A DNA stretch of 64,000 bases from positions 1,622,001 through 1,686,000 of the forward strand of contig NZ_AP018786.1 of the NCBI RefSeq assembly GCF_003609995.1, given 5' to 3'. Shown here one piece after another: positions 13,187 to 31,432 of this stretch (within the stretch, counting starts at the first letter, position 1; each line of letters opens with the position of its first letter). The notes under the pieces were generated by a model. The model was not told the DNA's origin. It did no database searches and saw nothing but the letters and a program-made list of their open reading frames with translations. The position numbers were made by a program, and so were the translations under genes. This stretch comes from Sutterella megalosphaeroides. GTDB lineage: Bacteria; Pseudomonadota; Gammaproteobacteria; Burkholderiales; Burkholderiaceae_F.

Positions 13187-13830
13187 GCCCGTACCTCGTG
13201 CGTATCAAGGAGCTCCTCGGGGTCCGCGACGCCCGACTCGAGCACGAGCCGAAGGAGCTCCCGCTGCGAATGAACGCCGAACTTCGCGAAGGCGTTCGAG
13301 CGGTGCATCTTGATGGTGCTCACCTCAAGCCCGAGCGCTCGGGCGGTTTCTTTGATTTGTTCCCCCTTCAGGACGGAGCGCACCACGTCGCGTTCGCGCG
13401 GCGTCAGGTCCGCAAACGTTCGCTTCAGGGCGTCGACCGGGGCGCTCTCCAAAGCGGCCTGCATCGAAAGCGTCACGGCGCTCGAGACCTTCTGAACGAA
13501 CTCCAAGGGCTCAACGGGCTTTTCGAGAAAATCCACGGCTCCGTGCCGCACGGCGTGAACGGCCGTCGAAATCGTGCCGTGCGCGGAAAGGAAGAGTACG
13601 GGCAGCGTCGCCCCGCGCCGCTCCATCTCGGCCTGCACTTCAAGGCCCGTCATCCCGGGCATGCGCATGTCAAGCACCACGCACCCCGGGCCCGAGAGCG
13701 TATCGGTCTCAAGAAAGGTGCGGCCGTCGGGGTAATAACGAACATCCCAGCCCATGGTGGTGAGCAGAAGCTCGAACGAATCGGCGAGGGCCGCATCGTC
13801 GTCGACGATGCGAACGAGGGGTTTGGTCAT
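13183..13830 (-). CDS. Response regulator, FixJ/TtrR-like, LuxR-type output
   Basis: A 215-residue regulator. The receiver domain has the acidic pocket IVDDDAAL, the phosphoacceptor Asp in CVVLDMRMPGM and the conserved Lys in LEKPVEP. The output domain is LuxR-type (LTPRERDVVRSVLKG, then EVSTIKMHRSNAFAKFGV). ATG at 13830 has GGAGA upstream and overlaps the kinase stop by four bases; its own stop overlaps the reductase start by four bases, so all three genes are translationally coupled. Family members such as TtrR, FixJ and StyR activate promoters of respiratory or catabolic genes. Likely targets are its own operon and possibly the neighbouring cytochrome-reductase operon. Confidence 0.93.
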   Translation of the reverse strand: MTKPLVRIVDDDAALADSFELLLTTMGWDVRYYPDGRTFLETDTLSGPGCVVLDMRMPGMTGLEVQAEMERRGATLPVLFLSAHGTISTAVHAVRHGAVDFLEKPVEPLEFVQKVSSAVTLSMQAALESAPVDALKRTFADLTPRERDVVRSVLKGEQIKETARALGLEVSTIKMHRSNAFAKFGVHSQRELLRLVLESGVADPEELLDTHEVRA

Positions 13831-15860
13831 GAGGGGTCTCCGGTTTTTTGATTGTCGCGGGTTGTGGTGTTCGAATCGAAACTCTTGAAGCTCTCGCTGT
13901 TCTCGAAGCGCTCGACCCTGTCGAAGGTCACGGCCGCTTCGAGGCCGCATTCGGGGAGGCGCCGCAAGGCAAGCCGCGCTCCGTGCTCGTCGACGATGTT
14001 CCGTACGATGGCAAGCCCCAAGCCGAGGCCGTCCGCTTTGACGCTTTCGCTCACGCGTTTCAAGCGCTCGAACGCCTCGTCCGGGAGCCTCGGGCCGTTG
14101 TCGACGACGCGAACGCGCACGTCGCCTTCCGCGAGCTCCGGTGCTTGCGGGCCCGTTTCGAGCATCACCCGCACGCGCGGACCCGCGGGGTCCGTCGTCT
14201 GGGCGGAAGCTTCGAGCGCGTTTTTGATGAGGTTCAGGAAAAGAAGTTCGAGTTCGAGCGGATCGCCTTCGACGAGAATCGGGTGCCCCGCCGCGTCCGC
14301 GGGCGCATAGTCGGTTTCGATCCGCCCTTTTCGGCTCCGACGGGCGCCGGCCACAGCCGCTTCGAGCCGCTCGTAGAGGTCGACGGGTCGGGGCGAACGC
14401 TTTTCGCGCTTGGCGTAGGCGCGCACCCGATCGACGATCTCGGCGATGCGGCGCGCTTCCTTTTCGGCGCCCGAGGCCGCACGGGAAAGAACCAGGTCGA
14501 CGGCGTCGGTCGCATCCGCCGCGGGAGGAACGGCAATGGGATTCGGAGTCTTACCCTTCCCCGTCGAGCTTCCCGCAGCCAACTGCGCAAGCCGCATGCG
14601 AAGGACCGCCATGTAGTTGATGACGGACCCCACGGGCTGCTTCAATTCGTGCGCGATCATGGCGCAAAGCTGACTGATGGCGCCCATGCGTTCGAGCTCT
14701 CCGAGGCGAAGGCGCGCGGCGCGCTCCGCTTCTTCAAGACGAGCGCGTTCCGCCAACGCTTCGCGAAGCTCCCGCGTACGGACGTCGACCAGGCGCCGAA
14801 GCCGCCACTCGTGAAAGAGAATGAGCCCGAGCGCGATGACAATCGCAACCACGTACCACTTGAAGCGCCGCCAGAGCGCTTCGGGGGTCCAACTCTCCAA
14901 ATAGGCCCATTCGCCGAGGTGAAGGCTCCGCTCCAATTCGCGCACCGCATGAAAGTCGCTCGTCACCTGCCAGACGTACCGCCCGCCCGTCAAGGCGTCG
15001 GCGGGCTTCACGGGCGTCAAGAGCGCAATCGTCATGAGCCGGGCGAGCTCGGGATCGGTCCCGGGTAAGGCCCCTGCCACCCAGTCGGGGTAAAGCTTCG
15101 TCGAATGCCGACAGGCAAGAAGCTCGTCCGTGACGGGCGCGACCACTTTCAAAGCTCCCGGCTCCACGAGCCCGCGGGCTTCCGCGCGCTCCAGAGCGCA
15201 GGCAGGCAAAATCCCCACGTCGAAATTCCCGGCCAAGACGCTCGATACGACGTTCGGGACGCCGTACGTCATGAAGTGGACGTCCCCGAAGAAATCTTTC
15301 GAGTCGTAGCCCGCTTCCTGCACTTCCAGGCGGGCGGCGAGCCACCCGTCCAAGGCCGTGGGGAGCGTTGCGGCCGTGCGCTTACCCTTCAAGTCCGTCA
15401 ACGTCGTGATGTCGGAGCGGTCGCTTCGCACAACGAAAGCCGCCCCGACGGACTGCGCGGGGTTGACGGCGGCGGTAGATAGGCGCGTTGCAATCGGATG
15501 TGCGCCCGTCGCGTCGAGCACGCGACGAAAGTCGGCCGAGGGCGCAATGAAAAGGTCGGGCCGAACGCGGTCGATGTCGGAAAGAAGCGTGATGCTTGAA
15601 AGGCGCACCACGGAGACGCGCGCTCCCGGCACATGACGCTCGATCGCTTCGATCGTGGGGCGGAGCGTCGTCGAGGGAAAATCCGTTTCGCTCGACTCCA
15701 CGACGCCGATCAGAACGGTGCGCGTAGGCGTCCGCTCGGGTGGGGCGTCGGCAGCCGTATGGGTAGGTGTGGCGAGTACGCAGGCGACCCCCAGGAGTCC
15801 CACGACTCCCGTCAGCAGGGAACGTTTGCCCGGAACCTTCAAGCCGCTCGTTTTGCGCAT
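13827..15860 (-). CDS. TtrS-like sensor histidine kinase with periplasmic phosphonate-binding-like domain
   Basis: A 677-residue membrane sensor. The N-terminal signal/anchor (SLLTGVVGLLGVACVLA) is followed by a periplasmic solute-binding domain of the PhnD/TtrS type at about residues 45-310 (TVLIGVVESSETDFPSTTLR, LKGKRTAATLPTALDG). Then come a transmembrane helix (WYVVAIVIALGLILF), a coiled coil, the phosphoacceptor His in AMIAHELKQPVGS, and an ATPase domain with the N box NLIKNALEAS, a G1-like VDNGPRLPD and GLGLGLAI. TtrS senses tetrathionate; no tetrathionate reductase lies nearby, and the coupled gene is an FAD reductase, so an organic acceptor is a better guess for the ligand. ATG 15860 places the signal peptide at the N-terminus. 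Confidence 0.9.
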   Translation of the reverse strand: MRKTSGLKVPGKRSLLTGVVGLLGVACVLATPTHTAADAPPERTPTRTVLIGVVESSETDFPSTTLRPTIEAIERHVPGARVSVVRLSSITLLSDIDRVRPDLFIAPSADFRRVLDATGAHPIATRLSTAAVNPAQSVGAAFVVRSDRSDITTLTDLKGKRTAATLPTALDGWLAARLEVQEAGYDSKDFFGDVHFMTYGVPNVVSSVLAGNFDVGILPACALERAEARGLVEPGALKVVAPVTDELLACRHSTKLYPDWVAGALPGTDPELARLMTIALLTPVKPADALTGGRYVWQVTSDFHAVRELERSLHLGEWAYLESWTPEALWRRFKWYVVAIVIALGLILFHEWRLRRLVDVRTRELREALAERARLEEAERAARLRLGELERMGAISQLCAMIAHELKQPVGSVINYMAVLRMRLAQLAAGSSTGKGKTPNPIAVPPAADATDAVDLVLSRAASGAEKEARRIAEIVDRVRAYAKREKRSPRPVDLYERLEAAVAGARRSRKGRIETDYAPADAAGHPILVEGDPLELELLFLNLIKNALEASAQTTDPAGPRVRVMLETGPQAPELAEGDVRVRVVDNGPRLPDEAFERLKRVSESVKADGLGLGLAIVRNIVDEHGARLALRRLPECGLEAAVTFDRVERFENSESFKSFDSNTTTRDNQKTGDPS

Positions 15861-15945
15861 CGTCCAATCGTCACTTCGTAGAGGGGGTTGGTCGCCTCGA
15901 AGCTCGACACCGGAACGGGTACGCCCCATGAGGCTCGTTCATCCA

Positions 15946-16059: not shown

Positions 16060-16327
16060 TTGTACGTCGAAAATACAACAACGAAAACAGGTGCTCCATC
16101 TTACTTTACTCTACTGTAAATGGCCTATTTTTAAGAAATATCCAAAATGTGTTGCGTTTATACAACACACTGAAAACATATACGCAAAATAGCCCATTCA
16201 TGTTTATCAATGAGTTCCTGATTTGTCACCTTGTTGTAATAAAAACTTCTTGACGCATTTGCTATCGTGAATTCACTCGCTGCAACAGAAGCGAGGCACT
16301 TCAACTTTTCGGATAGGAAAATCCATC
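16060..16327. other. AT-rich porin promoter region
   Basis: The stretch of roughly 16060-16270 is markedly AT-rich compared with the flanking GC-rich genes. It contains the porin palindrome at 16151, the second shared element TGTTTATC at 16201 and a TTGACG at 16250. It carries the control region of the first porin; no gene is seen in it. Confidence 0.5.
16151..16166. promoter_or_regulatory. Porin-array palindrome GTTG-N8-CAAC, copy 1
   Basis: GTTGCGTTTATACAAC, with arms extending outwards to GTGTTG / CAACAC. It lies 177 bases before the first porin's ATG. The same motif precedes three other porin genes and one relic. Confidence 0.6.
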
Positions 16328-17484
16328 ATGAAGAAGACTCTTGCCGCTCTCGCCGTTCTCGGCGCTTTTGCCGGTACCGCTGCCGCCGCCGACGTGCACC
16401 TCTACGGTGTCGTCGACACGGGCCTTGCGTACACTACAAGAACACCGAACTCGCCACGTCCGAAGCCGCCCTCACGCACGGCAGCGAAAGCCAGTTCGCG
16501 ATGCAGTCGGGCTACAACTCCGGCTCCCCCTTCGGCCTCCGCGGCACGGAAGACCTCGGTAACGGCCTCAAGGTCGGCTTCAAGCTCGAAAACGGCTTCT
16601 CCTCCGACGACGGCAACTTCAAGTACGAAGACCGCCTCTTCGGCCGTGAAGCCAGCCTCTCGCTCATCAGCGAATTCGGCACGTTCTCCTTCGGTCGCAT
16701 GGGCGCCCTCGGCGCCGCTGCCGGTACGTACGACGTGGTCTACGCGATCGGCGACGCCTTCGACGGCGGCGACAACGACGTCTTCGGCATGCACTCGTCC
16801 TCCCGCTACGACAACATGGTGACCTACCAGTCGCCGAAGTTCGCCGGCGTCCAGGCCACGGCCCAGTACTCCTTCAAGCAGAACTCGGTTTCGGGCTCCG
16901 GTGATGAAGGCACCTCCAAGGTCGACCGCTACGCCGGTCTCGCCGTGACGGGCGAATTCGGTCCCCTCCAGACCGTCGCCGCTTACGAACTTACGAAGTA
17001 CGCCAACACGAAGGACGCTCACGACGAAACGCACGCCTTCTACCTCGGCGGCAACTATGACCTCCAGGTGATGAAGCTCTTCGCCATGGCCCAGTACACG
17101 AAGGCCGACAAAAACTTCGGCACCTTCGAAAACCCGCTCTCCGGCGCTCAGTTCGCCGGTACTGAAGGCATCGAAAAGGGCATCGACTCCTACGGCCTCC
17201 ACCTCGGTACGATCGTCCCCGTTGCCGGCGGCGACTTCACGGCTGCCGTCTACTACGTCGACGGTGAAACCGACACGCTCCGCAATGCTGATGGCCAAGG
17301 TTCCGCCGAAGCCACCTACCTCGGTCTCTCCGCCCGCTACGTCTACCCGCTCAGTAAGCGCACCTCCGTCTACGTGGGCGCGGGCTATGCTGAAGAAAAG
17401 GCCGACCTGAAGGATGAAGCCGGCAAGGAATCCTACACGAACAAGATCGGCCAGGCTTACGCTGGTATCACCCACACGTTCTAA
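16328..17484 (+). pseudogene. Porin 1, frameshifted near codon 36
   Basis: Outer-membrane trimeric beta-barrel porin of the Neisseria/Burkholderia type. It starts normally with the signal peptide MKKTLAALAVLGAFAGTAAA and first strand DVHLYGVVDTGLAYT. At 16433-16435 one base is missing relative to its paralogues (TAC AC- TAC AAG), and the rest of the porin (YKNTELATSEAALTHG onward, ending GITHTF) lies in the -1 frame up to 17484. Read as it stands, translation would leave the porin frame and stop near 16822. Apart from the lost base the gene looks intact, so the lesion is recent, is a reversible switch, or is a sequencing error. It keeps the porin-array palindrome and terminator. Confidence 0.85.
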
Positions 17485-17564
17485 TTCGAATAGCGCGTTG
17501 GGACACGTCGGATAGCGTGCAAGATTCGACAAACAAAGCAACGCGCGTTTGACATCGAACGTTG

Positions 17565-17602
17565 AAACCCCGCAGGAGCGATCGGCCTGCGGGGTTTTGT
17601 TT
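17565..17602 (+). terminator. Porin terminator, copy 1
   Basis: AAACCCCGCAGG and CCTGCGGGGTTT form a 12-bp stem around the loop AGCGATCGG and run into TTTTGTTTTT. Four near copies occur after other porins or relics. Confidence 0.85.
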
Positions 17603-17642
17603 TTCGCTCTCCATTCGATCTCCCCTCTTCCGTCCGACCGAC

Positions 17643-17658
17643 GTTGCGAAGACGCAAC
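17643..17658. promoter_or_regulatory. Porin-array palindrome, copy 2 (orphaned)
   Basis: GTTGCGAAGACGCAAC is followed at once by mid-porin coding sequence, so the promoter and N-terminal half have been deleted between it and the relic. Confidence 0.5.
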
Positions 17659-18107
17659 ATCCTCTATCTCGGCGGCAACTACGACCTCCACGTTATGAAG
17701 CTCTTCGCTCTCGCCCAGTACATTAAGGCAGGAAGGACCTGGGGTCGCTCGAAGACGCTTTCTCCGATCCCGATTTCGAGGGCACTCAAGGCATCGAAAA
17801 AGGCGTCGACTCGTACGGCTTTCATCTCGGGACAATCGTGCCCCTGGCTGCGGGCGACCTGACGGTCGGCGTCTACTACGCCGAGGGCGACACCTCCACG
17901 CTCCATAGCGCTTGGGGCCGCGGCTGGGCCGAAACCTCCTACGTCGGTCTTTCCGCCCGCTACGCTTATCCCTTGAGCAAGCGCACCTCGCTCTACGCGG
18001 GCGCGGGCTATGCCGAAGAAAAGATCGACCTCAAGAACGACGCCGGCACGAACCGCAACACGAACACGGTCGGTCAGGCGTACGCCGGCATCACCCACAC
18101 GTTCTGA
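17659..18107 (+). pseudogene. Porin 2 relic: C-terminal third only, also frameshifted
   Basis: Codons from LYLGGNYDLHVMKLFALAQY onward match the last ~150 residues of the neighbouring porins. At about 17733 a base is missing, and the frame continues as KDLGSLEDAFSDPDFEG, then YAEGDTSTLHS, and ends SKRTSLYAGAGYAEEK...GITHTF with the C-terminal Phe. There is no signal peptide or start. The upstream palindrome sits directly against the remnant, which marks a deletion junction near 17660. It is followed by the usual porin terminator. Confidence 0.85.
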
Positions 18108-18150
18108 TTCGGTCCGCGCATCGGACAGGCCCGGAGGGGCCTTCCAAACC

Positions 18151-18186
18151 AACCCCCGCAGGAGCGATCGGCCTGCGGGGGTTTTC
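18151..18186 (+). terminator. Porin terminator, copy 2
   Basis: AACCCCCGCAGG / CCTGCGGGGGTT with the same AGCGATCGG loop, after the porin 2 relic. Confidence 0.8.
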
Positions 18187-18227
18187 GCGTCTGTAAACTC
18201 TATCTGCGATTCCTGCCCGGGGGTGCC

Positions 18228-18243
18228 GTTGCGAAAACACAAC
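18228..18243. promoter_or_regulatory. Porin-array palindrome, copy 3
   Basis: GTTGCGAAAACACAAC, 182 bases before the ATG of porin 3. GTTTATCC follows at 18280, the same offset as in the other copies. The 302-base gap 18108-18409 holds only this control region and the preceding terminator. Confidence 0.6.
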
Positions 18244-18409
18244 ATTAGGCTTAACCCTAAAATCCATGGAAACTTTCCCGTTTATCCAGAGTCTTGATTT
18301 TTATGTACAGCTACTTCGTCGAAAAATACGAAGCCTTTTGCTAATTTTCAAAAAGCCGCTTGACTTCTCAATGCGGAGTTCGACTTCCACATTTTTCGGA
18401 AAACAGATC

Positions 18410-19564
18410 ATGAAAAAGACTCTTGCCGCTCTCGCCGTTCTCGGCGCTTTTGCCGGCTCCGCCGCTGCTGCCGATGTTACCGTCTATGGCGTCGTTGACA
18501 CCGGCCTTGCCTACACCTACGAAAACTCCGAACTCGGCGTGTCCGATACCGGCTTCACCGAAGGCACGAACGGCAGCGAAAACCAGTTCGGCATGCAGTC
18601 GGGCTACAACTCGTCCTCGCGCTTCGGCATCAAGGGCACGGAAGACCTCGGCAACGGCCTTAAGGTCGGTTTCAAGCTCGAAAACGGCTTCAGCTCCGAC
18701 GACGGCACGCTCGGCCAGAGCGGCCGCCTCTTCGGTCGTGAATCGAGCCTCTCCTTGATGAGCGAATTCGGCACGATCTCCTTCGGTCGCATGGGCGGTG
18801 TGGCTTCGTCCGCCGGCACCTACGACATCGTCTACTCGATCGCCGACTCCTTCGACGGCGGCGACAACGACGTCCTCGGTCTCAACATCTCCGACCGCTA
18901 CGACAACATGGTGACCTACCAGTCGCCGAAGTTCGCGGGCGTCCAGGGCACGGTTCAGTACTCCTTCAAGCAGGACAACAAGTCTGATACCGACACGGGC
19001 GACGAAGGCACCTCCAAGGTCAACCGCTACGCCTCGTTCGCTCTGACGGGCGACTTCGGCCCCCTCCAGATGGTCGGCGCCTACGAACTCACGAAGTACG
19101 CCAACACCGACAACCACGACGAAACGCATGCCTTCTACCTCGGCGGCAACTACGACTTCCAGGTTCTGAAGCTCTTCGCCATGGCCCAGTACACGAAGGC
19201 CGCCAAGGACTTCGGTACCCTTGAAGATCCGCTTTCCGTTATCGGCAACCTCGCCGGCACCGAAAAGGGCATCGACTCTTACGGTCTCCATCTCGGCACG
19301 ATCGTCCCCGCCTTCGGCGGCGACTTCACGGCTGCGGTCTACTACGTTGACGGCGAAACCGACACCATTGCGGACGTGCTTTCCGCCGACGCCACCTACC
19401 TCGGCGTCTCCGCCCGCTACGTCTACCCGCTCAGCAAGCGCACTTCCATCTACGCCGGTGCCGGCTATGCTGAAGAAAAGATCGACTCCAACGTCGGCCC
19501 CGTCAGCGCTACCGACAAGAACAAGCTCGGTCAGGCTTACGCCGGTATCACGCACACGTTCTAA
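18410..19564 (+). CDS. Porin 3, intact Gram-negative trimeric porin
   Basis: A 384-residue outer-membrane porin for passive diffusion of small hydrophilic solutes. The signal peptide MKKTLAALAVLGAFAGSAAA is cleaved before ADVTVYG. The 16-stranded barrel pattern, the constriction-loop signature FGRMGGVASSAGTYD and the terminal GITHTF (C-terminal Phe for BAM recognition) are all present. ATG at 18410 starts the signal peptide; the frame is open upstream but without any porin sequence. It is very similar to porin 4, with the main differences in loops near residues 45-60, 195-210 and 280-320, as expected for surface-exposed parts. Confidence 0.93.
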   Translation: MKKTLAALAVLGAFAGSAAAADVTVYGVVDTGLAYTYENSELGVSDTGFTEGTNGSENQFGMQSGYNSSSRFGIKGTEDLGNGLKVGFKLENGFSSDDGTLGQSGRLFGRESSLSLMSEFGTISFGRMGGVASSAGTYDIVYSIADSFDGGDNDVLGLNISDRYDNMVTYQSPKFAGVQGTVQYSFKQDNKSDTDTGDEGTSKVNRYASFALTGDFGPLQMVGAYELTKYANTDNHDETHAFYLGGNYDFQVLKLFAMAQYTKAAKDFGTLEDPLSVIGNLAGTEKGIDSYGLHLGTIVPAFGGDFTAAVYYVDGETDTIADVLSADATYLGVSARYVYPLSKRTSIYAGAGYAEEKIDSNVGPVSATDKNKLGQAYAGITHTF

Positions 19565-19644
19565 TTCGGACTGCGCGTCGGCACTCGTCGGATAGCGTGC
19601 AAGATCCGATGCGAACGCCGACACTCGTCTGAAAGCGAATATCG

Positions 19645-19682
19645 AACCCCCGCAGGAGCGATCGGCCTGCGGGGTTTTGTTT
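19645..19682 (+). terminator. Porin terminator, copy 3
   Basis: AACCCCCGCAGG / CCTGCGGGGTT with the shared AGCGATCGG loop, then TTTTGTTTT. Confidence 0.85.
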
Positions 19683-19721
19683 TGCCTATAAACCCGAATT
19701 CGACCCGTTCACTCTATTGCT

Positions 19722-19737
19722 GTTGCGTAAATGCAAC
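19722..19737. promoter_or_regulatory. Porin-array palindrome, copy 4
   Basis: GTTGCGTAAATGCAAC, 181 bases before the ATG of porin 4, with outer arms T and A extending the symmetry. GTTTATCC follows at 19774, and TTGACT at 19854 corresponds to TTGACT at 18360 before porin 3. The gap 19565-19902 has no other content. Confidence 0.6.
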
Positions 19738-19902
19738 ACCGAGCTCACTCTTCTTCATCCGAAACATTTTCCTGTTTATCCGTGACTTGTTATTGCATAG
19801 GCAGGAAACCCAACGAAATTGTCACTTCCTCTTGCTAATTTGGGAAAACCCGCTTGACTTCTGACGGCGGGCTTCGACTCCCCTAAATTTCGGATGCTTA
19901 TC

Positions 19903-21039
19903 ATGAAAAAGACTCTTGCCGCCCTCGCCGTCCTCGGCGCTTTTGCCGGTACCGCCGCTGCGGCCGACGTTAACCTCTACGGCATTATCGATACGGGCCT
20001 CGCCTACACCTACGACAAGGTGACCGACGGTGCGAAGGAAGACACCTTCGGGATGCAGTCGGGTTACAACTCGGCTTCCCGCTTCGGCCTTAAGGGCACC
20101 GAAGAGCTCGGAAACGGCCTTAAGGTGGGCTTCAAGCTCGAAAACGGCTTCACCTCCGACGACGGCAACTTCAAGTACGAAGACCGCCTCTTCGGCCGTG
20201 AAGCGAGCCTCTCGCTCATGAGCGAATTCGGCACGATCTCCTTCGGCCGCATGGGCGGCGTCGCTTCGTCCGCGGGTACGTACGACCTCGTCTACTCGAT
20301 CGCCGACTCCTTCGACGGCGGCGACAACGACGTCCTCGGCCTCCAGATTTCCGACCGCTACGACAACATGGTGACCTACCAGTCGCCGAAGTTCGCGGGC
20401 GTTCAGGGGACGGCCCAGTACTCCTTCAAGCAGAATTCGGTCTCCGGCGAAGGCACGGAAGGCACCTCCAAGGTCGACCGCTACGCGTCGCTCGCTCTGA
20501 CGGGCGACTTCGGGCCGCTGCAGCTGGTGGGCGCCTACGAACTCTCGAAGTACGCCAACACGGCCGACGAGCACGACGAAACGCACGCTTTCTACGTGGG
20601 CGGCAACTACGACCTCCAGGTCCTGAAGCTCTTCGCCCTCGCCCAGTACACGAAGGCGGGCAAGAACTTCGGTTCCTACTCCGACCTCCTCGGCGCCCTC
20701 GCTCCGACGGCCGAAGGCGACGAAAAGGGGATCGACAGCTACGGTCTCCACCTCGGTACGATCGTCCCGGTTCTCGGCGGCGACCTCACGGCCGGCGTCT
20801 ACTATGTCGACGGCGAAACCGACACCCTCACGAACGGCTCCGTCCAGGGCTCGGCCGACATGACCTATCTCGGCTTCTCCGCCCGCTACGCCTATCCCTT
20901 GAGCAAGCGCACGTCCGTCTACTTCGGTGCGGGCTACGCCGAAGAAAAGATCGATCCGTCGGCTTCCATCACGACCTTCGAGGACGAATACACGCACAAG
21001 ATCGGTCAGGCTTACGCCGGCATCACGCACAAGTTCTAA
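19903..21039 (+). CDS. Porin 4, intact Gram-negative trimeric porin
   Basis: A 378-residue outer-membrane porin with signal peptide MKKTLAALAVLGAFAGTAAA, mature start ADVNLYGIIDTGLAYTY, constriction-loop segment FGRMGGVASSAGTYDLVYSI, and terminal GITHKF. An in-frame ATG three codons upstream (19894) is an alternative start; the inner one matches the paralogues. Long stretches are nearly identical to porin 3, including the 3' untranslated sequence (TCGGATAGCGTGCAAGATCC), pointing to recent duplication or gene conversion. Followed by the shared terminator and then the TnpB element. Confidence 0.93.
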   Translation: MKKTLAALAVLGAFAGTAAAADVNLYGIIDTGLAYTYDKVTDGAKEDTFGMQSGYNSASRFGLKGTEELGNGLKVGFKLENGFTSDDGNFKYEDRLFGREASLSLMSEFGTISFGRMGGVASSAGTYDLVYSIADSFDGGDNDVLGLQISDRYDNMVTYQSPKFAGVQGTAQYSFKQNSVSGEGTEGTSKVDRYASLALTGDFGPLQLVGAYELSKYANTADEHDETHAFYVGGNYDLQVLKLFALAQYTKAGKNFGSYSDLLGALAPTAEGDEKGIDSYGLHLGTIVPVLGGDLTAGVYYVDGETDTLTNGSVQGSADMTYLGFSARYAYPLSKRTSVYFGAGYAEEKIDPSASITTFEDEYTHKIGQAYAGITHKF

Positions 21040-21119
21040 TTCGGGCCGTGCGTCGGCACTCGTCGGATAGCGTGCAAGATCCGACGCGAACGCCGACCCT
21101 CGTCTGAAAACGGACATCA

Positions 21120-21157
21120 AAACCCCGCAGGAGCGATCGGCCTGCGGGGTTTTGTTT
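21120..21157 (+). terminator. Porin terminator, copy 4
   Basis: AACCCCGCAGG / CCTGCGGGGTT with the AGCGATCGG loop, then TTTTGTTTTA. Confidence 0.85.
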
Positions 21158-21259
21158 TACGCCGAATTCGCAACGTCCGAATCCGACCCCACGACCTCAA
21201 GTGAGAGCGAAATGCGGGGACCCCCGAGCCTTTGAAATACCTTCGGTACAATTTCACCC

Positions 21260-22711
21260 ATGACCCAAGGACGCAAATTTTCCGCACGCTTCTCGAATGA
21301 CGCCTCCAGGTACGGCTACCTAACGTGGTCGGCCGCCCAGTCGTTCATTTACAACGAGAAGGTGCGCGAACAACGCTACTTCGACAGCCTCTACAGGCTG
21401 ATCGACGAGACGAAGCGGCACTGCCAGCCGATTCGTCCGGAGTGTTGCGTGGATCGTCCGCAGCCGGATCAGAAATACGCTCACCTTGTCGACTTCGAGG
21501 AGATGCCGTGGCTCCGCGAGGTGCCCTCGATGATCTACGGCATCGGCGCCTATCGGTTTTGTCAAGCGTCCCGGCGAATGCTCAGCGGGCTCGCCGGCCG
21601 TCCGAAGGTGCATCCGATCAAGGAGTCGGATCGCGTCTTGCAACTGACTCGAAAGTATTTCGCGATCGAGCCGCACACGCGCAAGGGGTGGTTCGTCCTG
21701 CAGTTCGGCTCCAAACAGAAGCCCGGCGGCAGCATCCTCTTCAAGGCGCATCGTGAATTCTTGATGCCCGCGATGGTCTTCGTGAAGCTCTCGGCTCGCG
21801 GGCTGTCGGTCTCCTTCTGTTATGAAGACCCCAAAGATCTCGAGTGCTTTCCCGAAACGGAAGAAGAGATCTCGGCACGTCTGATGCAATACACGAAGGA
21901 CGAGTTGCAGAAGAAGACGATCGGGGTGGACCGCGGCGTCGCGCGTCCCGTGCAGTCGAGCCACCGCGAGGCCCCCTACGGCCTTACGAAAAAGCAGCTC
22001 CAAAAAATTGCGAGTCGGGAACGCCATCGCAAGCGTCTGCAGCGCCGGCTTGCCAAGGCCAAAAAGGGGAGCAATAACCGTCGCAAAGTGAAGCGTCGTC
22101 TGGGGCGAACCTATCAGTACCAACGCAACGTCCTGGAGGACTTCGCTCATCAGACGAGCCATGCGCTCGTGTCGCTCGAAGACACCTGGCTTATCGTGCT
22201 CGAAGCGCTGAAGATCGACAATATGGTCAAACGTCCTGCTCCGGAGTACGACGAAGAAACCGGGCGACCGCTCAAGAACGGTGCTTCGGCGCATGCGGGC
22301 CTGGCAGAGTCCATTTTGAAGAGCGGCTGGGGGAAAGTCAGAACCTATTTGAGATACAAGGCCCTCAAGGCCGGAAAGCTTGTCCTTGAGGTCGACCCTA
22401 AGAACACCTCGCGTCGATGCCCCGTTTGCGGGCTTATAGATCCAAAGAACCGTCCCTCGCAGGCGGTCTTCCATTGTGTGCGATGCGGCTTTGAAGACAA
22501 CGCGGACCACGCCGCCGCGATCAACATTCGTGATCGCGGGATCGACATGCTTCTGTCGGGGCTCTACAAGCCGAAAACGAGGAAAAAGCTTCTTCGCACG
22601 AAGAAGGCGAAGCCGTCTTCGGTGAAGCTAGGCCCGGATCGGGCCGATGTAATGCCTGTGGAGCTGACGGCCCCCGACAAGACCGAGGTCTTGTCGGCAT
22701 GTCGGCGTTGA
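21260..22711 (+). CDS. tnpB: TnpB RNA-guided nuclease
   Basis: A 483-residue TnpB protein, the transposon ancestor of Cas12, which uses an RNA from its own right end to cut DNA at the donor site. The RuvC triad appears complete: Asp224 in IGVDRGVARP, Glu315 in LIVLEALKIDN and Asp416 in NADHAAAIN. A zinc finger with CPVCG (Cys387/390) and CVRCG (Cys406/409) lies between the last two. A basic helical stretch (RERHRKRLQRRLAKAKKG) follows the first Asp. Length is at the long end for TnpB, with about 50 residues after the last catalytic Asp. ATG at 21260 fits the first conserved residues; the ribosome site is weak. Confidence 0.9.
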   Translation: MTQGRKFSARFSNDASRYGYLTWSAAQSFIYNEKVREQRYFDSLYRLIDETKRHCQPIRPECCVDRPQPDQKYAHLVDFEEMPWLREVPSMIYGIGAYRFCQASRRMLSGLAGRPKVHPIKESDRVLQLTRKYFAIEPHTRKGWFVLQFGSKQKPGGSILFKAHREFLMPAMVFVKLSARGLSVSFCYEDPKDLECFPETEEEISARLMQYTKDELQKKTIGVDRGVARPVQSSHREAPYGLTKKQLQKIASRERHRKRLQRRLAKAKKGSNNRRKVKRRLGRTYQYQRNVLEDFAHQTSHALVSLEDTWLIVLEALKIDNMVKRPAPEYDEETGRPLKNGASAHAGLAESILKSGWGKVRTYLRYKALKAGKLVLEVDPKNTSRRCPVCGLIDPKNRPSQAVFHCVRCGFEDNADHAAAINIRDRGIDMLLSGLYKPKTRKKLLRTKKAKPSSVKLGPDRADVMPVELTAPDKTEVLSACRR

Positions 22712-22720
22712 ATCAGGAAG

Positions 22721-22740
22721 CCCCCGCATTCATGCGGGGG
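22721..22740 (+). other. Right-end hairpin of the TnpB element, likely end of its guide RNA scaffold
   Basis: CCCCCGCAT / ATGCGGGGG is a perfect 9-bp stem with a 2-base loop, ten bases after the tnpB stop. In related elements the guide (omega) RNA overlaps the 3' end of tnpB and this region, with the guide read from the flanking DNA; here the flank is porin-relic sequence. Confidence 0.5.
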
Positions 22741-22745
22741 TGGAT

Positions 22746-22799
22746 CACGCACAAGATCGGCAGGCGTACTACGGCATCACCCACGCGTCTGAATAGAGC
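22746..22799 (+). pseudogene. Porin relic: last ~17 codons of a porin, downstream of TnpB
   Basis: CACGCACAAGATCGG followed by CAGGCGTACTACGGCATCAC corresponds to the porin ending HKIGQAY-GITH, with one base lost after ATCGG and a changed final codon. It abuts the TnpB right end and is followed by a porin-type terminator. The 383-base gap 22712-23094 holds this relic, that terminator and the control region of porin 5. Confidence 0.7.
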
Positions 22800-22823
22800 C
22801 GCCTGTCGGACAATCCTCAAATT

Positions 22824-22859
22824 AAACCCCGAAGGAGAAATCGGCCTGCGGGGTTTTTG
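22824..22859 (+). terminator. Porin terminator, diverged copy 5 (belongs to the relic)
   Basis: AACCCCG / CGGGGTT with a loop related to the other four copies (GAAATCGGCC in place of GCGATCGGCC), then TTTTTGTTGT. Confidence 0.7.
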
Positions 22860-22922
22860 TTGTCGCCTCGCCTTCGGGATTCCGGCCATCGACCACGATT
22901 CCTCAACCGAGTTGACGGCCCC

Positions 22923-22938
22923 GTTGCAAACCCGCAAC
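22923..22938. promoter_or_regulatory. Porin-array palindrome, copy 5
   Basis: GTTGCAAACCCGCAAC, 172 bases before the ATG of porin 5. GTTTATCC follows at 22974. Confidence 0.55.
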
Positions 22939-23094
22939 AGCCGAGCAGTCCTGAAGGACAACCGCCCTCCCCTGTTTATCCGCGTATTCGCCTCGCAAAG
23001 ACACATCCCGCTGGCCGTAGCCGCACGCCTTTGGTACCGTTCTTCTAAAGTCCGCCCTGCGGACGCTTCCCTCACTCGTTTCTCCTTCCTCATC

Positions 23095-24300
23095 ATGAAA
23101 AAGACTTCCGCCGCTCTCGCGGTTTTCACCGCCCTCACCGCCCTCACCTCTCTCTCGGGCGCTGCGTCCGCCGCCGACGTCTCGGTCTACGGCGTCGTCG
23201 ACACCGGGCTTCTCTACACGTCCCGCAACGTCATCCTCGCCGCCGAAACGAATCCGGACGCGTTCACGGGCGGGCGCGTGCACGGTTTTGAAATGCAGTC
23301 GGGCTACAACGCGAGCTCCCGCATCGGTCTCAAGGGCTCGGAAGACCTCGGCAACGGCCTCAAGGCGAGCTTCGTCCTTGAAAACGGGCTCTTCACGGAC
23401 GACGGTTCGATGAAGTACGACCGGCTCTTCGGACGCGAAGCCCTGCTCGGCCTTTCGGGCGAATTCGGAACGGTTGCGTTCGGGCGCACCGGGGGCGTTG
23501 CGTCCGCCGCGGGATCGTTCGACCTCGTCTACCTGACCGCGGACGCCTTCGACGGCGGCGACAACCTCGTTTTCGGCATGCAGGCCTCGGACCGCTACGA
23601 CAATACGGCTACCTACCAAACGCCGAAGTTCGCGGGCCTCCGGGGTACGGTGCAGTATTCCTTTAAGACGGATTCTCTCGATGGCGAAGGCACCGAAGGC
23701 ACCTCCAAGGCCGACCGCTACGCCTCGATCGCCGTGACGGGCGACTTCGGTCCGCTTCAGTGGGTCGGCGCCTACGAACTCACGAAGTACGCCAACACCG
23801 ACCGCGCCGACGACACGAACGCCGTCTACCTCGGCGGCAACTACGATGCGGGCTTTGCCAAAGTCTTCCTGCTCGCCCAGTACACGGATGCGGGGAAGAG
23901 CTTTGCGAGCTTCGTGAACGCTCTGGAACCCGACGCGGCCGCGGGCTTTGCGGGCGCCGAGCACGGGTTCGACAGTTGGGGGTTGCACGTCGGCGCGATC
24001 GTTCCCGTGGCAGGCGGCGACCTGACGGCGGGCGTCTACTATGTCGACGGTGAAACGGCCGCGGTCGACTACATCGACTACACGAACAAACAGGATCTCA
24101 CCTATCTCGGTCTTTCGGCGCGCTACGTCTATCCCCTGAGCAAGCGCACGTCCCTCTACGCGGGCGCAGGTTGGGCGCGTGAAGAAGTCACGTCGACCTT
24201 CAGTCTCACCCCCGGGGGGCGCCCCACGCCTTCTTACCGGCTTCCGACTGACAAAAACACCTACACTCAAGCGTACGCGGGCGTAACCCACACGTTCTGA
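23095..24300 (+). CDS. Porin 5, intact and more divergent
   Basis: A 401-residue outer-membrane porin. The signal peptide (MKKTSAALAVFTALTALTSL...) is longer than in porins 1-4 and is cleaved near SAA-ADVSVYG. The constriction segment reads FGRTGGVASAAGSFD, and the protein ends GVTHTF. Loops near residues 45-60 and 365-385 (rich in Pro, Gly and Arg) are unlike those of porins 3 and 4, and codon-level identity to them is lower, so this is an older paralogue. The start is fixed by the signal peptide. It probably heads a two-gene transcript with porin 6, since no terminator or palindrome lies in the 67-base gap. Confidence 0.92.
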   Translation: MKKTSAALAVFTALTALTSLSGAASAADVSVYGVVDTGLLYTSRNVILAAETNPDAFTGGRVHGFEMQSGYNASSRIGLKGSEDLGNGLKASFVLENGLFTDDGSMKYDRLFGREALLGLSGEFGTVAFGRTGGVASAAGSFDLVYLTADAFDGGDNLVFGMQASDRYDNTATYQTPKFAGLRGTVQYSFKTDSLDGEGTEGTSKADRYASIAVTGDFGPLQWVGAYELTKYANTDRADDTNAVYLGGNYDAGFAKVFLLAQYTDAGKSFASFVNALEPDAAAGFAGAEHGFDSWGLHVGAIVPVAGGDLTAGVYYVDGETAAVDYIDYTNKQDLTYLGLSARYVYPLSKRTSLYAGAGWAREEVTSTFSLTPGGRPTPSYRLPTDKNTYTQAYAGVTHTF

Positions 24301-24367
24301 GACGTCGCACTCTCTTTGAACCTCGAACCCGGGCCCAAATCTACCCTCCGGTCAGGATATCCTCACC

Positions 24368-25528
24368 ATGCAAAAGCATCTTCTCCAACTCGCAATTCTC
24401 GGCGCCTTCTCGGTTGCCGGGGCGGCCTCCGCGGCCGACATTTCGGTTTACAGCATTGTCGATACGGGTATCGCCTACACGTCGAAAGACATTCGTTTCG
24501 GCTCGTCCGAAGCCGTACTCACGCACGGCAACGAAAAAAGCTTTTCAATGCAATCGGGCTACAACGAAGCGTCGCGCTTCGGTCTCAAGGGCTCGGAAAC
24601 GCTCGGCAACGGCCTCACCGCAGGCTTCAAGCTTGAAAACGGCTTTTCGTCCGACGACGGCGCGATGCGGTACGACGATCGGCTCTTCGGACGCGAGGCG
24701 GCCCTTTTCCTCTCGGGCGACTTCGGTACCGTCGCATTCGGCCGCATGGGCGGGGTCGCCTCCTCCGCGGGCACGTACGACCTCGTCTACGCGATTGCGG
24801 ACGCCTTTGACGGCGGCGACAACGACGTCTTCGGTCTTCAGGCTTCGGACCGTTACGACAACACGGCGACCTACCAAACGCCGAAGTTCTCGGGGCTGCA
24901 GGCCACGCTTCAATACGCCTTCAAAACGGACGGAGTGAAGGGCGAGGGTACCGAAGGTACCTCGAAAGCAGACCGTTACGCCTCGGCCGCCCTGACGGGC
25001 GACTTCGGTCCCCTGCAGTGGGTCGGCGCCTACGAACTCACGAAGTACGCCAACACCGACCGCCACGAGGATACCCACATTTTCTATGCGGGCGGCAACT
25101 ACGACTTCGGGGTTGCTCGTGTTTTTGCACTCGCGCAGTACGCGAAGGCGTCGAAGAGCTTCGCCACCTTCGAAAACGCCTTTGCCGACGAAGTCGCGAG
25201 CGGAGTTCCCGGGGCCGAGAAAGGCATCGACGGCTTCGGGGCGCACCTCGGCACGATCGTTCCCCTCTTCGGAGGCGACCTGACGGCTGCGGCCTACTAT
25301 GCCGAGGGCGAAAGCGAAACGCTCGGGTACGATTTCTACGCGGTTCAAGGCGACTTCTCGTACCTCGGGTTTTCGGCCCGCTACGTCTATCCTTTGAGCA
25401 AGCGCACGTCGCTTTACGCCGGGGCGGGCCTCGCGCGTGAAAAGTCGACCGCCAACACGGATTACGGCGCCTACTCGGATACGAACCGCTACACCCAGGC
25501 GTACGCGGGTCTCACGCACCGCTTCTGA
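24368..25528 (+). CDS. Porin 6, intact, closest to porin 5
   Basis: A 386-residue outer-membrane porin. The signal peptide MQKHLLQLAILGAFSVAGAA differs from the MKKT type of the others; the mature start is ADISVYSIVDTG. The constriction segment FGRMGGVASSAGTYDLVYAI and the Phe C-terminus (GLTHRF) are present. AGGA lies about ten bases before the ATG. It lacks the upstream palindrome found before the other porins and lies 67 bases after porin 5, so it is most simply read as the second gene of that transcript. A different, unrelated terminator follows. Confidence 0.92.
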   Translation: MQKHLLQLAILGAFSVAGAASAADISVYSIVDTGIAYTSKDIRFGSSEAVLTHGNEKSFSMQSGYNEASRFGLKGSETLGNGLTAGFKLENGFSSDDGAMRYDDRLFGREAALFLSGDFGTVAFGRMGGVASSAGTYDLVYAIADAFDGGDNDVFGLQASDRYDNTATYQTPKFSGLQATLQYAFKTDGVKGEGTEGTSKADRYASAALTGDFGPLQWVGAYELTKYANTDRHEDTHIFYAGGNYDFGVARVFALAQYAKASKSFATFENAFADEVASGVPGAEKGIDGFGAHLGTIVPLFGGDLTAAAYYAEGESETLGYDFYAVQGDFSYLGFSARYVYPLSKRTSLYAGAGLAREKSTANTDYGAYSDTNRYTQAYAGLTHRF

Positions 25529-25695: not shown

Positions 25696-27192
25696 TCAGG
25701 CCTTCACGGCTTCCTTCGCGGCGTTTTCACCGGCGATCTGGCCGAAGACGAAGCAGTCGAGCACGGCATTGCCACCCACGCGATTCGTGCCGTGGATGCC
25801 GCCCGTGATTTCGCCCGCGGCGTAGAGACGCGGAATCACGGCGCCCGTCCAATCGAGGCACTGAGCCTTCGTGTTGGTGTTGAGACCGCCCATCGTGTGG
25901 TGCACGGTCATGCCGGTGTAGCAGGCCCAGAAGGGACCCTTTTCGATCTTCTTCGTGAGGTTGACGGCGGTCTTGTTGAAGTCCTCGTCCTTCTTCGCGT
26001 CGACGAAGCCGTTGTAGCGCTTGATCGTCGCTTCGAGACCGTCGGGGTCGACGCCCATCTTCTCGGCGAGTTCGCGAATGGTCGGAGCGGACCAGGCTTC
26101 GTTGATCTTTTCGCCTTCGTGAATCGCCTTGCGGTTCACTTCGTCGTAGCTCATGAAGTTTTCGTTGTCGCAAACCGTGTAGGCATAGCGTTCGGGCGTG
26201 CCCAAAACGGCGTCGCGAATGACGTCGCGGCGTTCGCCTTCGTTCACGATACGGTTGCCGCGCTTGTCGACGTAGATCGAGCCGTTCACGTTGAAGTTGA
26301 GAAGAAGCTTCATCTTCTTGCCGGCGGGAGCGCCCGGGGTGGACTGAATGAAGTCCATGCCGACCAAGTAGCCGCCCACGCGCACGGCCGCCATTGCGAC
26401 CTGACCCGACATGGAGGGAAGGTTGTCGGTGCCGAGGCCCTTCACACGCGGATCGTGGAGTTCGCGCAGATAGGTGTTCGCACCGAACCCGCCCGCGGCG
26501 AGCACCACGGCGCGCGTCGCACGGATGTAGCGCGTTTCGCCCTTCGAATTCTTCACCTGCACGCCGAGGACATCGCCTTCGAAGCCCCCTTCGCGGATGA
26601 TTTCGACGACGTCCATGCCGGTCTTCACTTCAACGCCCAAGTCCTTCGCGGCCTTGGCGAGCACCGTGCCGTAACCCTGGCCCTTCGGAAGAGCCGGAAC
26701 GTGGGAGCGCGGATAAAGAGCGCCGAAAATCTGGATGACGTTGTCCTTGAACTTCATGCCGAGGCTTTCGAGCCACGTGATCGCGCCGTAGGCGTTTTCG
26801 CAGAGCACGCGAACGCGTTCGGGATCGCCGCGGAAGTCGCCCGCAGCGAGCGTCTGCTTCATGTGGTTTTCGGGCGAATCCTTGATGCCCTGCTTGGGCT
26901 GACGCACGGGGTCGGCGGCGTTGATGAAGCCCTGAGAAAGGAGCGTGTTGCCGCCCGCAAAGGCGAGCTTTTCAAGGACGACGATCTTCTTGGCACCCGT
27001 CTGCGCGGCCTTGACGGCGGCGGCCATGCCCGCACCGCCCGCACCGACCACCACCACTTCGTAGGTATCGGTCCACTTGACGCCGTCGGCGGACTTGGCG
27101 GAAGCGACGCTCGAGGCGCCCATCGCGGCGAGGGCGGCGCCGCCGAGACCGACGCTCTTCAAAAGACTGCGGCGGGAAAGTTCCTTGCTCAT
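25696..27192 (-). CDS. Tat-exported FAD reductase, the one closest to canonical fumarate reductase
   Basis: A 498-residue periplasmic flavoprotein. Tat signal SRRSLLKSVGLGG, cleaved near ASA-KS; FAD motif EVVVVGAGGAGMAAAVKAA near residue 45. Of the five paralogues here it keeps most fumarate-reductase active-site features: the NExxxRD segment as NEGERRD, HHTMGG with both His, and HGTNRVGG with the Arg. The loop that usually reads IQAHP is FIQSTP, so one substrate-binding His is lost. AAAGGAGA six bases upstream fixes ATG 27192. No cytochrome gene is adjacent, so electrons must come from an unlinked donor. The neighbouring TtrS/TtrR-like pair at 28490-31403 could control it. Confidence 0.9.
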   Translation of the reverse strand: MSKELSRRSLLKSVGLGGAALAAMGASSVASAKSADGVKWTDTYEVVVVGAGGAGMAAAVKAAQTGAKKIVVLEKLAFAGGNTLLSQGFINAADPVRQPKQGIKDSPENHMKQTLAAGDFRGDPERVRVLCENAYGAITWLESLGMKFKDNVIQIFGALYPRSHVPALPKGQGYGTVLAKAAKDLGVEVKTGMDVVEIIREGGFEGDVLGVQVKNSKGETRYIRATRAVVLAAGGFGANTYLRELHDPRVKGLGTDNLPSMSGQVAMAAVRVGGYLVGMDFIQSTPGAPAGKKMKLLLNFNVNGSIYVDKRGNRIVNEGERRDVIRDAVLGTPERYAYTVCDNENFMSYDEVNRKAIHEGEKINEAWSAPTIRELAEKMGVDPDGLEATIKRYNGFVDAKKDEDFNKTAVNLTKKIEKGPFWACYTGMTVHHTMGGLNTNTKAQCLDWTGAVIPRLYAAGEITGGIHGTNRVGGNAVLDCFVFGQIAGENAAKEAVKA

Positions 27193-27282
27193 GAAAATCT
27201 CCTTTGGATTGGTCGTGCGAAGCGTTGCGTTCGTACCGTTCGCTTCGCTCGCGTTTCGTTCAGGATTCATTTTCCGCAGAGG

Positions 27283-27296
27283 CTTACGCGCGTAAG
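27283..27296. promoter_or_regulatory. Perfect 14-bp palindrome upstream of the FAD reductase
   Basis: CTTACGCGCGTAAG lies 91 bases before the reductase ATG, in the 330-base gap 27193-27522 that holds nothing else recognisable apart from a small GTCCCG/CGGGAC hairpin near 27461. It matches the CYTAC-N4-GTARG pattern of the palindrome at 11359-11378. Confidence 0.5.
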
Positions 27297-27522
27297 AGTC
27301 TTTTTTCTCCGTTCGTGGTCGAAAAAGGGATCGGTGAAAACCCGCCCCCTACCCGCTCCGGACGCTTCCCGGATGCGAGGTGCCGTCGGCCGCCCGTCCG
27401 GAGCTGCACGGTTTGCGCTCGTGTTGTTCGCCCGTTGCTCGCCCGTTGCGTAAGCCGTGCGTCCCGTTCCCGGGACTTGCGCTCCGCTACGCCGTACGTT
27501 GCTCGGTGCGTCGCTTCGTCTG

Positions 27523-28284
27523 TCAGGCCCCGATCGGGCTCGGGATCACGTAAAAGAGCACCGCAAAGAATTGGAGCGCCGTGCCCGCAAGGACGAACAC
27601 GTGCCAGATGGCATGGTTGAAGGGGAGCTTCTCCCAGAGGTAAAAGACCACCCCTGCGCTGTAGGCTACGCCCCCGCCCGCAAGGAGCGCGAGCCCGCCC
27701 CAGGGGAGAGCCTCCACGAGGGGCTTCAGAACGAAAATCACGCACCAGCCGAGCCCGAGGTAGAGGAGACAATTGATCCAGTCGGCGGCCTTCATGAGGA
27801 AGGGTTGGAAGATCGCTCCCGCAAGCGCGATCCCCCAGACGACGAAAAAGAGCGCCCAGCCGGTGACGCCCCCGAGCGTGATGAGGCAAAAAGGCGTGTA
27901 GGAGCCCGCGATGAGAAGGTAGATCGCGCTGTGGTCGAAAATCTGCAGAATGCGCTTTGCGCGTCGATTCGGAATCGCGTGGTAGAGGGTCGAGACGAGG
28001 TAGAGAATCACCATGGTCGCGCCGAACAAGGCGGAACTCGCAATGACGACCGCGCTCTTTCCCGTCGCGACCGCCTCGACGACCATAACGACCAAGCCCG
28101 CAATCGAAAGGAGCGCCGCCAAACCGTGCGTCACGGCATTCGCGGTCTCTTCGCCGCGACTGTAGACGGGAAGGTGCACGCCGCGGCGCTGCTTGGCGGA
28201 TCGGCTCGAAGGAGCGTATTCCGCCCGCGGGGTCTCGCTATTCCCGTTCCCTGCTTTCGTTTCTCTTCGGGCAACATCCGTCAT
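27523..28284 (-). CDS. Hemolysin III family (PAQR-like) membrane protein
   Basis: A 253-residue inner-membrane protein of the YqfA/hemolysin III branch of the PAQR family, with seven predicted helices. Family metal-site motifs are visible: NAVTHGLAAL in the first helix, SxxYHAIPNR after the third (STLYHAI), DHSAIYLLIAGSYTP next, and the final PFNHAIWHVFVLAG, giving the usual set of His and Asp. Its role in bacteria is not well defined (membrane lipid homeostasis has been proposed for relatives); hemolysis should not be assumed. ATG 28284 follows GGAG by eight bases and gives an extended polar N-terminus of about 45 residues, longer than usual. Confidence 0.88.
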   Translation of the reverse strand: MTDVARRETKAGNGNSETPRAEYAPSSRSAKQRRGVHLPVYSRGEETANAVTHGLAALLSIAGLVVMVVEAVATGKSAVVIASSALFGATMVILYLVSTLYHAIPNRRAKRILQIFDHSAIYLLIAGSYTPFCLITLGGVTGWALFFVVWGIALAGAIFQPFLMKAADWINCLLYLGLGWCVIFVLKPLVEALPWGGLALLAGGGVAYSAGVVFYLWEKLPFNHAIWHVFVLAGTALQFFAVLFYVIPSPIGA

Positions 28285-28489
28285 GCTTCTCGCTCCGTCG
28301 TGTTTCGTTCTTCGGTGTATCCGAAGGAAGTGTGACGCACGGATTAGCCGCAAAACGGCAGTAGGATTACGGGTTAACCCCTATTTTCGTTTCCGACGAG
28401 GCAAAAGACGCAACGGAATGTTGCCTGGGGCGCGGATTTTGCAGGCGCCTCGCGCAGGCGCGGCGTGCGACCCGACGACCCCAAGCGGA

Positions 28490-29209
28490 TCACGCCTCGG
28501 GAAAGCGCTTCCGGAGCGCGTCGCGAATGTCGGGAAGAATTGCTTCGAGGGCTTCCCCCGAATGGACGTTGAATTTGCGGTAGAGCTTTGCGCGATGCCC
28601 TTCGACCGTTCGGACGGATACGCCCGTACGCTCCGAAATCTGGGCGTCGGTGAGCGCCTTGTGGATGTAGACGAGGATTCGGACCTCGTGTTCGGAGAGA
28701 CTATCCGCTCCCTCGACGATCCGTTCTTCGCGGGTGCCGAGCCGACGAAGGCGGTCGCGATGGAGTCCCCGATCGATCGCGGCGATGAGTTCGTCTTCGT
28801 CGACGGGTTTCATCAGAAAGTCGAGCGCTCCCGCCTTGAGACTCGAAACCGCCACGTGCACGTCCGCGTAACCCGTAAGGAAAATGACAGGGAGACCGCG
28901 CCCGAGTTCGGCGAGGCGGTTTTGCAGTTCGAGCCCGCTCATCCCCGGCATCCGCACGTCGAGCACGAGACACCCCGGGCGTTCTTCGCGGGCTTCTTCG
29001 GGGTCCGCGAGGAAGGCGTCGGCGCTCGGCCAGTCGGCGACCTGAAAACCTTCGATTTCGAGCATCGTCTTCAAGGAGCGCCGTACGGCCTCGTCGTCGT
29101 CAACGATGCGAACGAGCGATGCGGCGCGTTCCTGCTCGCGTCGGTCGGAAAAGTCCGCGTCGAAAAGCGGTTTCAAAAGCTCGGGCGTGAGCGGTGCGGA
29201 AGCGGGCAT
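28490..29209 (-). CDS. Response regulator, FixJ/TtrR-like
   Basis: A 239-residue regulator with a receiver domain (acidic pocket IVDDDEAV, phosphoacceptor in CLVLDVRMPGM, Lys in LMKPVDE) and a LuxR-type helix-turn-helix (SEHEVRILVYIHKALTDAQI, then SVRTVEGHRAKLYRKF). The first ~30 residues are an extension ahead of the receiver. GGAGG lies eleven bases before ATG 29209. It follows the cognate kinase gene by 121 bases. By family its targets are likely respiratory promoters; the palindrome before the FAD reductase at 27192 is a candidate site. Confidence 0.92.
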   Translation of the reverse strand: MPASAPLTPELLKPLFDADFSDRREQERAASLVRIVDDDEAVRRSLKTMLEIEGFQVADWPSADAFLADPEEAREERPGCLVLDVRMPGMSGLELQNRLAELGRGLPVIFLTGYADVHVAVSSLKAGALDFLMKPVDEDELIAAIDRGLHRDRLRRLGTREERIVEGADSLSEHEVRILVYIHKALTDAQISERTGVSVRTVEGHRAKLYRKFNVHSGEALEAILPDIRDALRKRFPEA

Positions 29210-29330
29210 GGGGGGTCGGTCCTCCGGGCTTGATGTCGTCGGAAGGGGAAGTGTAACGATTCGGGGGGCGTTTGGAAAAGGACGGACGGTCACGAACGGT
29301 CACGTCCGTTTGCTTTCCCGAGCTTTCCTT

Positions 29331-31403: not shown

Positions 31404-31432
31404 CCGCCCTCGTATTCGTTTTCGGGAAGAGA

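Follow-up and report, generated by a model that had tools for sequence, protein, structure and literature searches.

A seven-locus tandem array of general porins in Sutterella megalosphaeroides, its probable birth-and-death history and the palindrome that precedes its units

Anatomy of the array

Sutterella and related bacteria are commonly found in the gut. Here we describe a tandem array of porin genes in Sutterella megalosphaeroides, contained in a window of 64,000 nucleotides (bases 1622001-1686000) of its single-contig 2.73-Mb genome. Within 9.4 kb of this window (16151-25528; window coordinates are used throughout), seven porin loci lie on the + strand: four of them are intact genes (porins 3 to 6, here p3-p6), p1 is a gene with a broken reading frame, and two are relics, the first a C-terminal fragment and the second a 45-bp remnant next to a tnpB gene that looks intact. 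An earlier note on this DNA had listed these states, and all of them hold on the sequence; it spoke of six porin genes in its title and of seven loci in its text, and seven is the correct number. With a probability of roughly 0.77, we read the locus as a lineage-specific tandem array of Omp32/PorB-type porins that evolves by birth and death and whose units carry a putative palindromic operator. As an array it is a fresh example of an already known kind, and it is the palindrome that merits further study. The features are as follows.

16151..16166, + strand: palindrome GTTGCGTTTATACAAC, 177 nt 5' of the p1 ATG
16328..17484, + strand: porin 1 (p1); signal peptide intact, frame broken at about 16433-16438, open thereafter to the natural stop
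17485..17607, + strand: p1 3' untranslated region and terminator hairpin, the hairpin starting at 17568
17643..17658, + strand: palindrome GTTGCGAAGACGCAAC, now 4 nt ahead of the truncated relic 2
17663..18107, + strand: porin relic 2; only the C-terminal third remains (codon 230 or so onwards), the frame changes a second time near 17733, and a terminator copy follows at 18151
18228..18243, + strand: palindrome GTTGCGAAAACACAAC, 182 nt 5' of p3
18410..19564, + strand: porin 3 (p3), intact, 384 amino acids
19565..19687, + strand: p3 3' untranslated region and terminator
19722..19737, + strand: palindrome GTTGCGTAAATGCAAC, 181 nt 5' of p4
19903..21039, + strand: porin 4 (p4), intact, 378 amino acids; AlphaFold model with 16 strands and a predicted local distance difference test score (pLDDT) of 89
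21040..21162, + strand: p4 3' untranslated region and terminator
21260..22711, + strand: tnpB, intact-looking, with OrfB_IS605 and Cas12f1-like TNB domains; no tnpA seen adjoining
22721..22749, + strand: presumed right end of the tnpB element, a hairpin followed by GATCAC; position taken from one relative (L012)
22750..22795, + strand: porin relic 5; final 15 or so codons, containing small deletions and directly adjoining the right end of the tnpB element
22824..22866, + strand: terminator of relic 5, a diverged fifth copy of the array terminator
22923..22938, + strand: palindrome GTTGCAAACCCGCAAC, 172 nt 5' of p5
23095..24300, + strand: porin 5 (p5), intact, 401 amino acids
24368..25528, + strand: porin 6 (p6), intact, 386 amino acids, 67 nt 3' of p5 and without a palindrome of its own

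The likeness between units extends beyond the coding sequence, and the earlier note was right to report shared upstream and 3' elements. The palindrome GTTG-N8-CAAC is present at 16151, 17643, 18228, 19722 and 22923, lying 172-182 nt before the starts of p1, p3, p4 and p5, with one site at relic 2. The terminator hairpin CCCCGCAGGAGCGATCGGCCTGCGGGG has exactly four exact copies in the whole genome, all of them in the array, in addition to the diverged fifth copy behind relic 5. Given the short distance from p5 to p6 and the missing palindrome, we infer that p6 probably shares a transcript with p5. A search of the array against Rfam gave no match.

In p1, the ATG opens frame 1, which extends to about 16435, and homology resumes in another frame from 16438; because this downstream frame lacks a signal peptide, it cannot make an exported porin. 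That the break is instead a sequencing or assembly error, which would give the array five intact genes, is unlikely while retaining a real minority chance. The lesion is a single small indel in a gene otherwise open to its stop, and p1 is altered at only two residues conserved across the genus (at the 90% level), both changes being common to p3 and p4; however, the break does not fall within a homopolymer, and at columns where the other four copies all agree p1 has 13 changes of its own, compared with 6 for p3 and 4 for p4, a pattern that fits relaxed constraint.

The four intact proteins and the open part of p1 all match Pfam Porin_4 (E 6e-38 to 5e-46), with scores of 131-158 bits against a curated cut-off of 27, which places them in this family; Porin_4 and Porin_1 were the only Pfam families found at E values up to 0.001. 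The p4 model has its 16 strands after merging of the L1 hairpin, a long loop L3 with a helix at 130-134, and a C-terminal F. The nearest solved structures, by sequence and predicted fold, are Omp32 of Comamonas acidovorans (PDB 1e54, 2fgq; E 1.8e-19 with p4), BpsOmp38 of Burkholderia pseudomallei and Neisseria PorB, all of which share with p4 the predicted fold of a 16-strand general porin. The array porins differ from these in being only about 26% identical to Omp32 and in having divergent loops, above all L6, L7 and L8. On sequence and model together, they are classed as 16-strand general porins of the Omp32/BpsOmp38/PorB type, with a predicted channel function.

Lineage, age and past exchange of the copies

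A tree of 72 porins groups the five near-full array copies in one clade with support of 100/99, separate from 21 porins of other species, with 11 other Sutterella species covered; inside the clade, p5 groups with p6, and p3 with a pair made up of p4 and p1. One genome per species was compared, S. megalosphaeroides included. The right-flank flavoprotein has orthologues in nine species (83-87% identity over the part matched), and in none of them do the 13-15 kb on that side contain a porin. In five species, relatives of the left-flank block of kinase, regulator and flavoprotein (kinase 47-50% identity) likewise have none in the stretches read. Since other species have no porin beside these flanking genes, the array is, on these sequence comparisons, particular to the S. 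megalosphaeroides lineage.

Its copies are old by the measures at hand. Pairwise nucleotide identity is 68-81%, synonymous divergence (dS) is 0.39-0.89, and the ratio of nonsynonymous to synonymous divergence (dN/dS) is 0.29-0.45. The longest exact run common to any two copies is 53 bp, so that the near-identical core segments described in the earlier note put the case too strongly; this short run and a dS of 0.4-0.9 are the reasons for considering the copies old. When positions are mapped on the p4 model, the outer loops except L3 are 49% identical across copies compared with 74% in the barrel strands, and the ratio of nonsynonymous to synonymous differences (pN/pS) is 0.65 in these loops, 0.36 in strands and about 1 in L8. 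Such loop-biased divergence is as expected for surface-exposed loops and does not, alone, demonstrate selection by immunity or phages. Taken with the single clade, the relics and the absence of the locus at the flanks of others, the loop differences bear out the repeated duplication and loss, and the differing loops, that had been proposed for this locus.

Gene conversion, also proposed, finds moderate support as an old process, and we see no evidence of recent exchange, as no long identical tract exists. Our own GENECONV-like permutation test on silent codons, a type of test that codon bias weakens, picked out p1/p4 at codons 98-214 (global P 0.0045) and p3/p5 at codons 195-268 (P 0.03). Segment-by-segment counts also favour differing pairings of copies, although p1 may be a drifting pseudogene. 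The 3' untranslated regions of p3 and p4 (19565-19687 and 21040-21162) are identical at 105/115 positions (91%), while silent sites differ by about 35%, so this stretch represents either a converted tract or a conserved 3'-end RNA element.

These data bear on the idea that conversion is still homogenising the copies, in which case their single clade would reflect homogenisation and not recent duplication. The clustering of this porin clade by species in several species speaks for it, as do the p1/p4 and p3/p5 fragments, the conflicting segment topologies and the likeness of the p3 and p4 3' regions. We nonetheless hold it to be improbable, because no identical tract exceeds 53 bp and the copies are 68-81% identical overall, while the 3' region could be kept for function and the signal from p1 may be mere drift.

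Under the birth-and-death reading, the founding unit would have been a complete cistron made up of a palindromic operator, leader, porin gene, 3' untranslated region and terminator. Whole units could then have been copied, and deletion relics left behind, by unequal recombination between direct repeats, while small lesions and the tnpB insertion would have degraded some copies. The surviving genes would have diverged chiefly in their external loops to yield a set of parallel pores, whose members may differ in solute preference.

A palindrome ahead of outer-membrane protein genes

Outside the array, we looked at the same arrangement in 68 porin upstream regions from S. megalosphaeroides and other Sutterella species. 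Half-sites with a spacer of 8 were seen 11 times, compared with a shuffle mean of 0.43, and spacers of 4-7 and 9-10 had zero occurrences in these regions. Across 12 Sutterella genomes there are 17 sites of a strict form, TGTTGY-N6-RCAACA, versus 3 for the reversed control, and at least 9 of the 17 lie upstream of porins by their coordinates; one site in S. wadsworthensis stands upstream of a gene with an ESPR/autotransporter start. Conservation of the GTTG and CAAC letters is built into the search, but this does not hold for the association with genes or for the spacing rule.

In another genus of the family, sites occur in pairs about 1.5 kb apart, and the regions concerned (L147, L148, L150, L151) hold tandem porins, each preceded by a site at a distance of 140-248 nt from its start. 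Three genomes of this genus contain 21 strict sites in all, and the genes behind them, porins excepted, were named by inspection. Of these sites, 12 precede porins, 3 autotransporter-like genes, 2 an OmpA-like gene, 1 a sodium-solute-type symporter and 1 an FMN-binding-like flavoprotein, with 2 lacking an assigned gene. The palindrome is in this way linked with outer-membrane protein genes (porin, autotransporter-like and OmpA-like) in at least two genera, and it is probably, to judge from its sequence context, the operator of a family-wide outer-membrane regulon. A single regulator binding TGTTGY-N6-RCAACA would then control the array porins and other outer-membrane genes. Whether such a regulon is an undescribed one, in which one regulator sets the porin and autotransporter make-up and arrays are stacks of identically wired cassettes, seems to us an evenly balanced proposition; if so, the palindrome offers a direct handle on how gut Burkholderiales choose the pores and surface proteins they display. 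We did not find it described in the open-access literature under several notations, which is weak evidence, since motif notation varies and subscription papers are mostly uncovered by such a search.

Two loci of the second genus (L146 at 3454 and L149 at 2040) hold an orphan palindrome about 110-125 bp past a porin 3' end with no recognisable porin after it; such orphans are perhaps relics of lost porin copies.

Several observations weigh against the combined reading of birth-and-death copies under a palindromic operator. The branching order within p1, p3 and p4 varies between segments; the strict palindrome is absent from 6 of the 12 Sutterella genomes, so its regulator may not act on all porins; and among the sites of the S. 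megalosphaeroides genome outside the array, T-runs come after L034 and L036, which could be terminators, and L033 lies inside a longer hairpin. This last point feeds the alternative that the palindromes are transcription terminators or RNA hairpins and no operator, for which three genome sites in hairpins followed by T-runs (L053/L036, L060 and L061/L033) and the T-rich L034 can be cited. The alternative is nevertheless decidedly improbable. No T-run follows the sites in the array, where the true terminators have another sequence and lie just upstream; the spacer is fixed at 8; inner positions vary on one side without compensation; relic 2 retains its palindrome without a leader; and in the second genus the sites stand 134-281 nt ahead of porin starts. 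We did not accept all genome-wide matches to the short palindrome as operators: several are hairpins with T-runs or lie within coding sequence, and only sites upstream of outer-membrane genes were therefore used.

As to what might bind a palindromic operator of this form, the NnrR/FNR-type box has the consensus ctTTGcgnnnncgCAAag (PMC1274295). The core of the palindrome, TTGC(G/A)-N4-(T/C)GCAA, resembles the NnrR consensus, and its half-sites are spaced by one helical turn; on the other hand, the flanks differ (G...C, T...A), the target genes differ, and no matching regulator was seen among the proteins examined. The NnrR-like core is a lead only. Three CRP/FNR proteins of the genome were examined: an FNR with a TTGAT-type recognition helix, a CRP-like protein and an odd third that two site-bearing genomes lack. 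A CRP-like protein encoded beside one palindrome (L118) was considered as the regulator and rejected, being absent from two genomes (G011 and G007) that both carry sites.

Variation, known arrays and the genomic neighbourhood

The earlier note had also suggested a locus that generates surface or permeability variation. If the array were an active phase or antigenic variation system, its copies would recombine or switch frames within a population, and the divergent external loops, the silent-site signal of old conversion and the frame-broken copies could all be cited in favour. This is very unlikely, however. There is no simple-sequence tract at the p1 frame break and none of note elsewhere in the array, no inverted repeat of 40 bp or more was found there, and no recombinase was seen in it apart from the tnpB gene, which leads us to reject phase variation through slipped strands or inversion; neither a simple-sequence repeat nor an invertible element stands at any switch point, as a phase-variable locus would require. 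The 53-bp maximum identical run and the dS values between copies argue in the same direction. At least three copies (p1, p3 and p4) have a full upstream region with palindrome and a terminator of their own, in contrast to a layout of silent donors and a single expression site. For this reason, and given the shortness of the longest identical run, the array does not resemble the Anaplasma msp2-like cassette system, with its one expressed locus, silent donors and recent identical tracts.

Closer parallels exist for birth-and-death arrays of this kind. The Ehrlichia Omp-1/P28 cluster (PMC7789307) likewise consists of tandem paralogous outer-membrane porins with lineage-specific gain and loss of copies, although the array here is far smaller, has Pfam hits to Porin_4/Porin_1, has several copies with their own palindrome and terminator, and has other flanks. 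Brucella omp2a/omp2b (PMC7050475) are a further case of linked porin paralogues that differ in their loops and bear signs of gene conversion; these two genes are inverted relative to each other and 82-100% identical, and conversion has been shown across strains, whereas the Sutterella copies are direct repeats at 68-81% identity with weak, old conversion signals.

The OrfB_IS605 and TNB domains of the TnpB protein place it in the IS200/IS605 group, and its gene is the sole copy at the DNA level in the genome. The presumed right end, deduced from one relative, falls at 22749; neither the left end nor a target motif could be defined by comparison with relatives of 40-48% identity, and a search of viral contigs for similar tnpB elements gave distant relatives only. 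The presumed guide RNA part would begin with porin 3'-end sequence, its first 12 nt equalling the p4 3' end; that TnpB thereby cuts sister porins and promotes turnover of the array is hardly credible.

The array sits between two flavoprotein/response regulator/sensor kinase blocks (11558-15929 and 25696-31961). The left-block kinase carries a phosphonate-type periplasmic binding domain, and such blocks occur in other species without porins. We considered and rejected a fixed module of porins with a flanking flavoprotein and sensor kinase: the porin loci of other species mostly lack such neighbours, and orthologous flanks lack porins.

Genome-wide, porin matches number about two dozen in S. megalosphaeroides versus 5 to 22 in the 11 other Sutterella species searched, and a search of genome contigs for related porins recovered, besides Sutterella species, a single distant Bordetella. 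No paper on Sutterella porins turned up in the open-access literature searched. The array illustrates the growth and decay of porin repertoires, of up to two dozen genes per genome, in Sutterella and its relatives. Other Sutterella species also carry porins in tandem pairs and triples, of which some include broken members; growing and decaying arrays are therefore habitual in the genus and no peculiarity of this locus. Broken or truncated tandem porins were seen in three of these species, at L067 8512-9684, L079 7483-8634 and L064 6439-6603.

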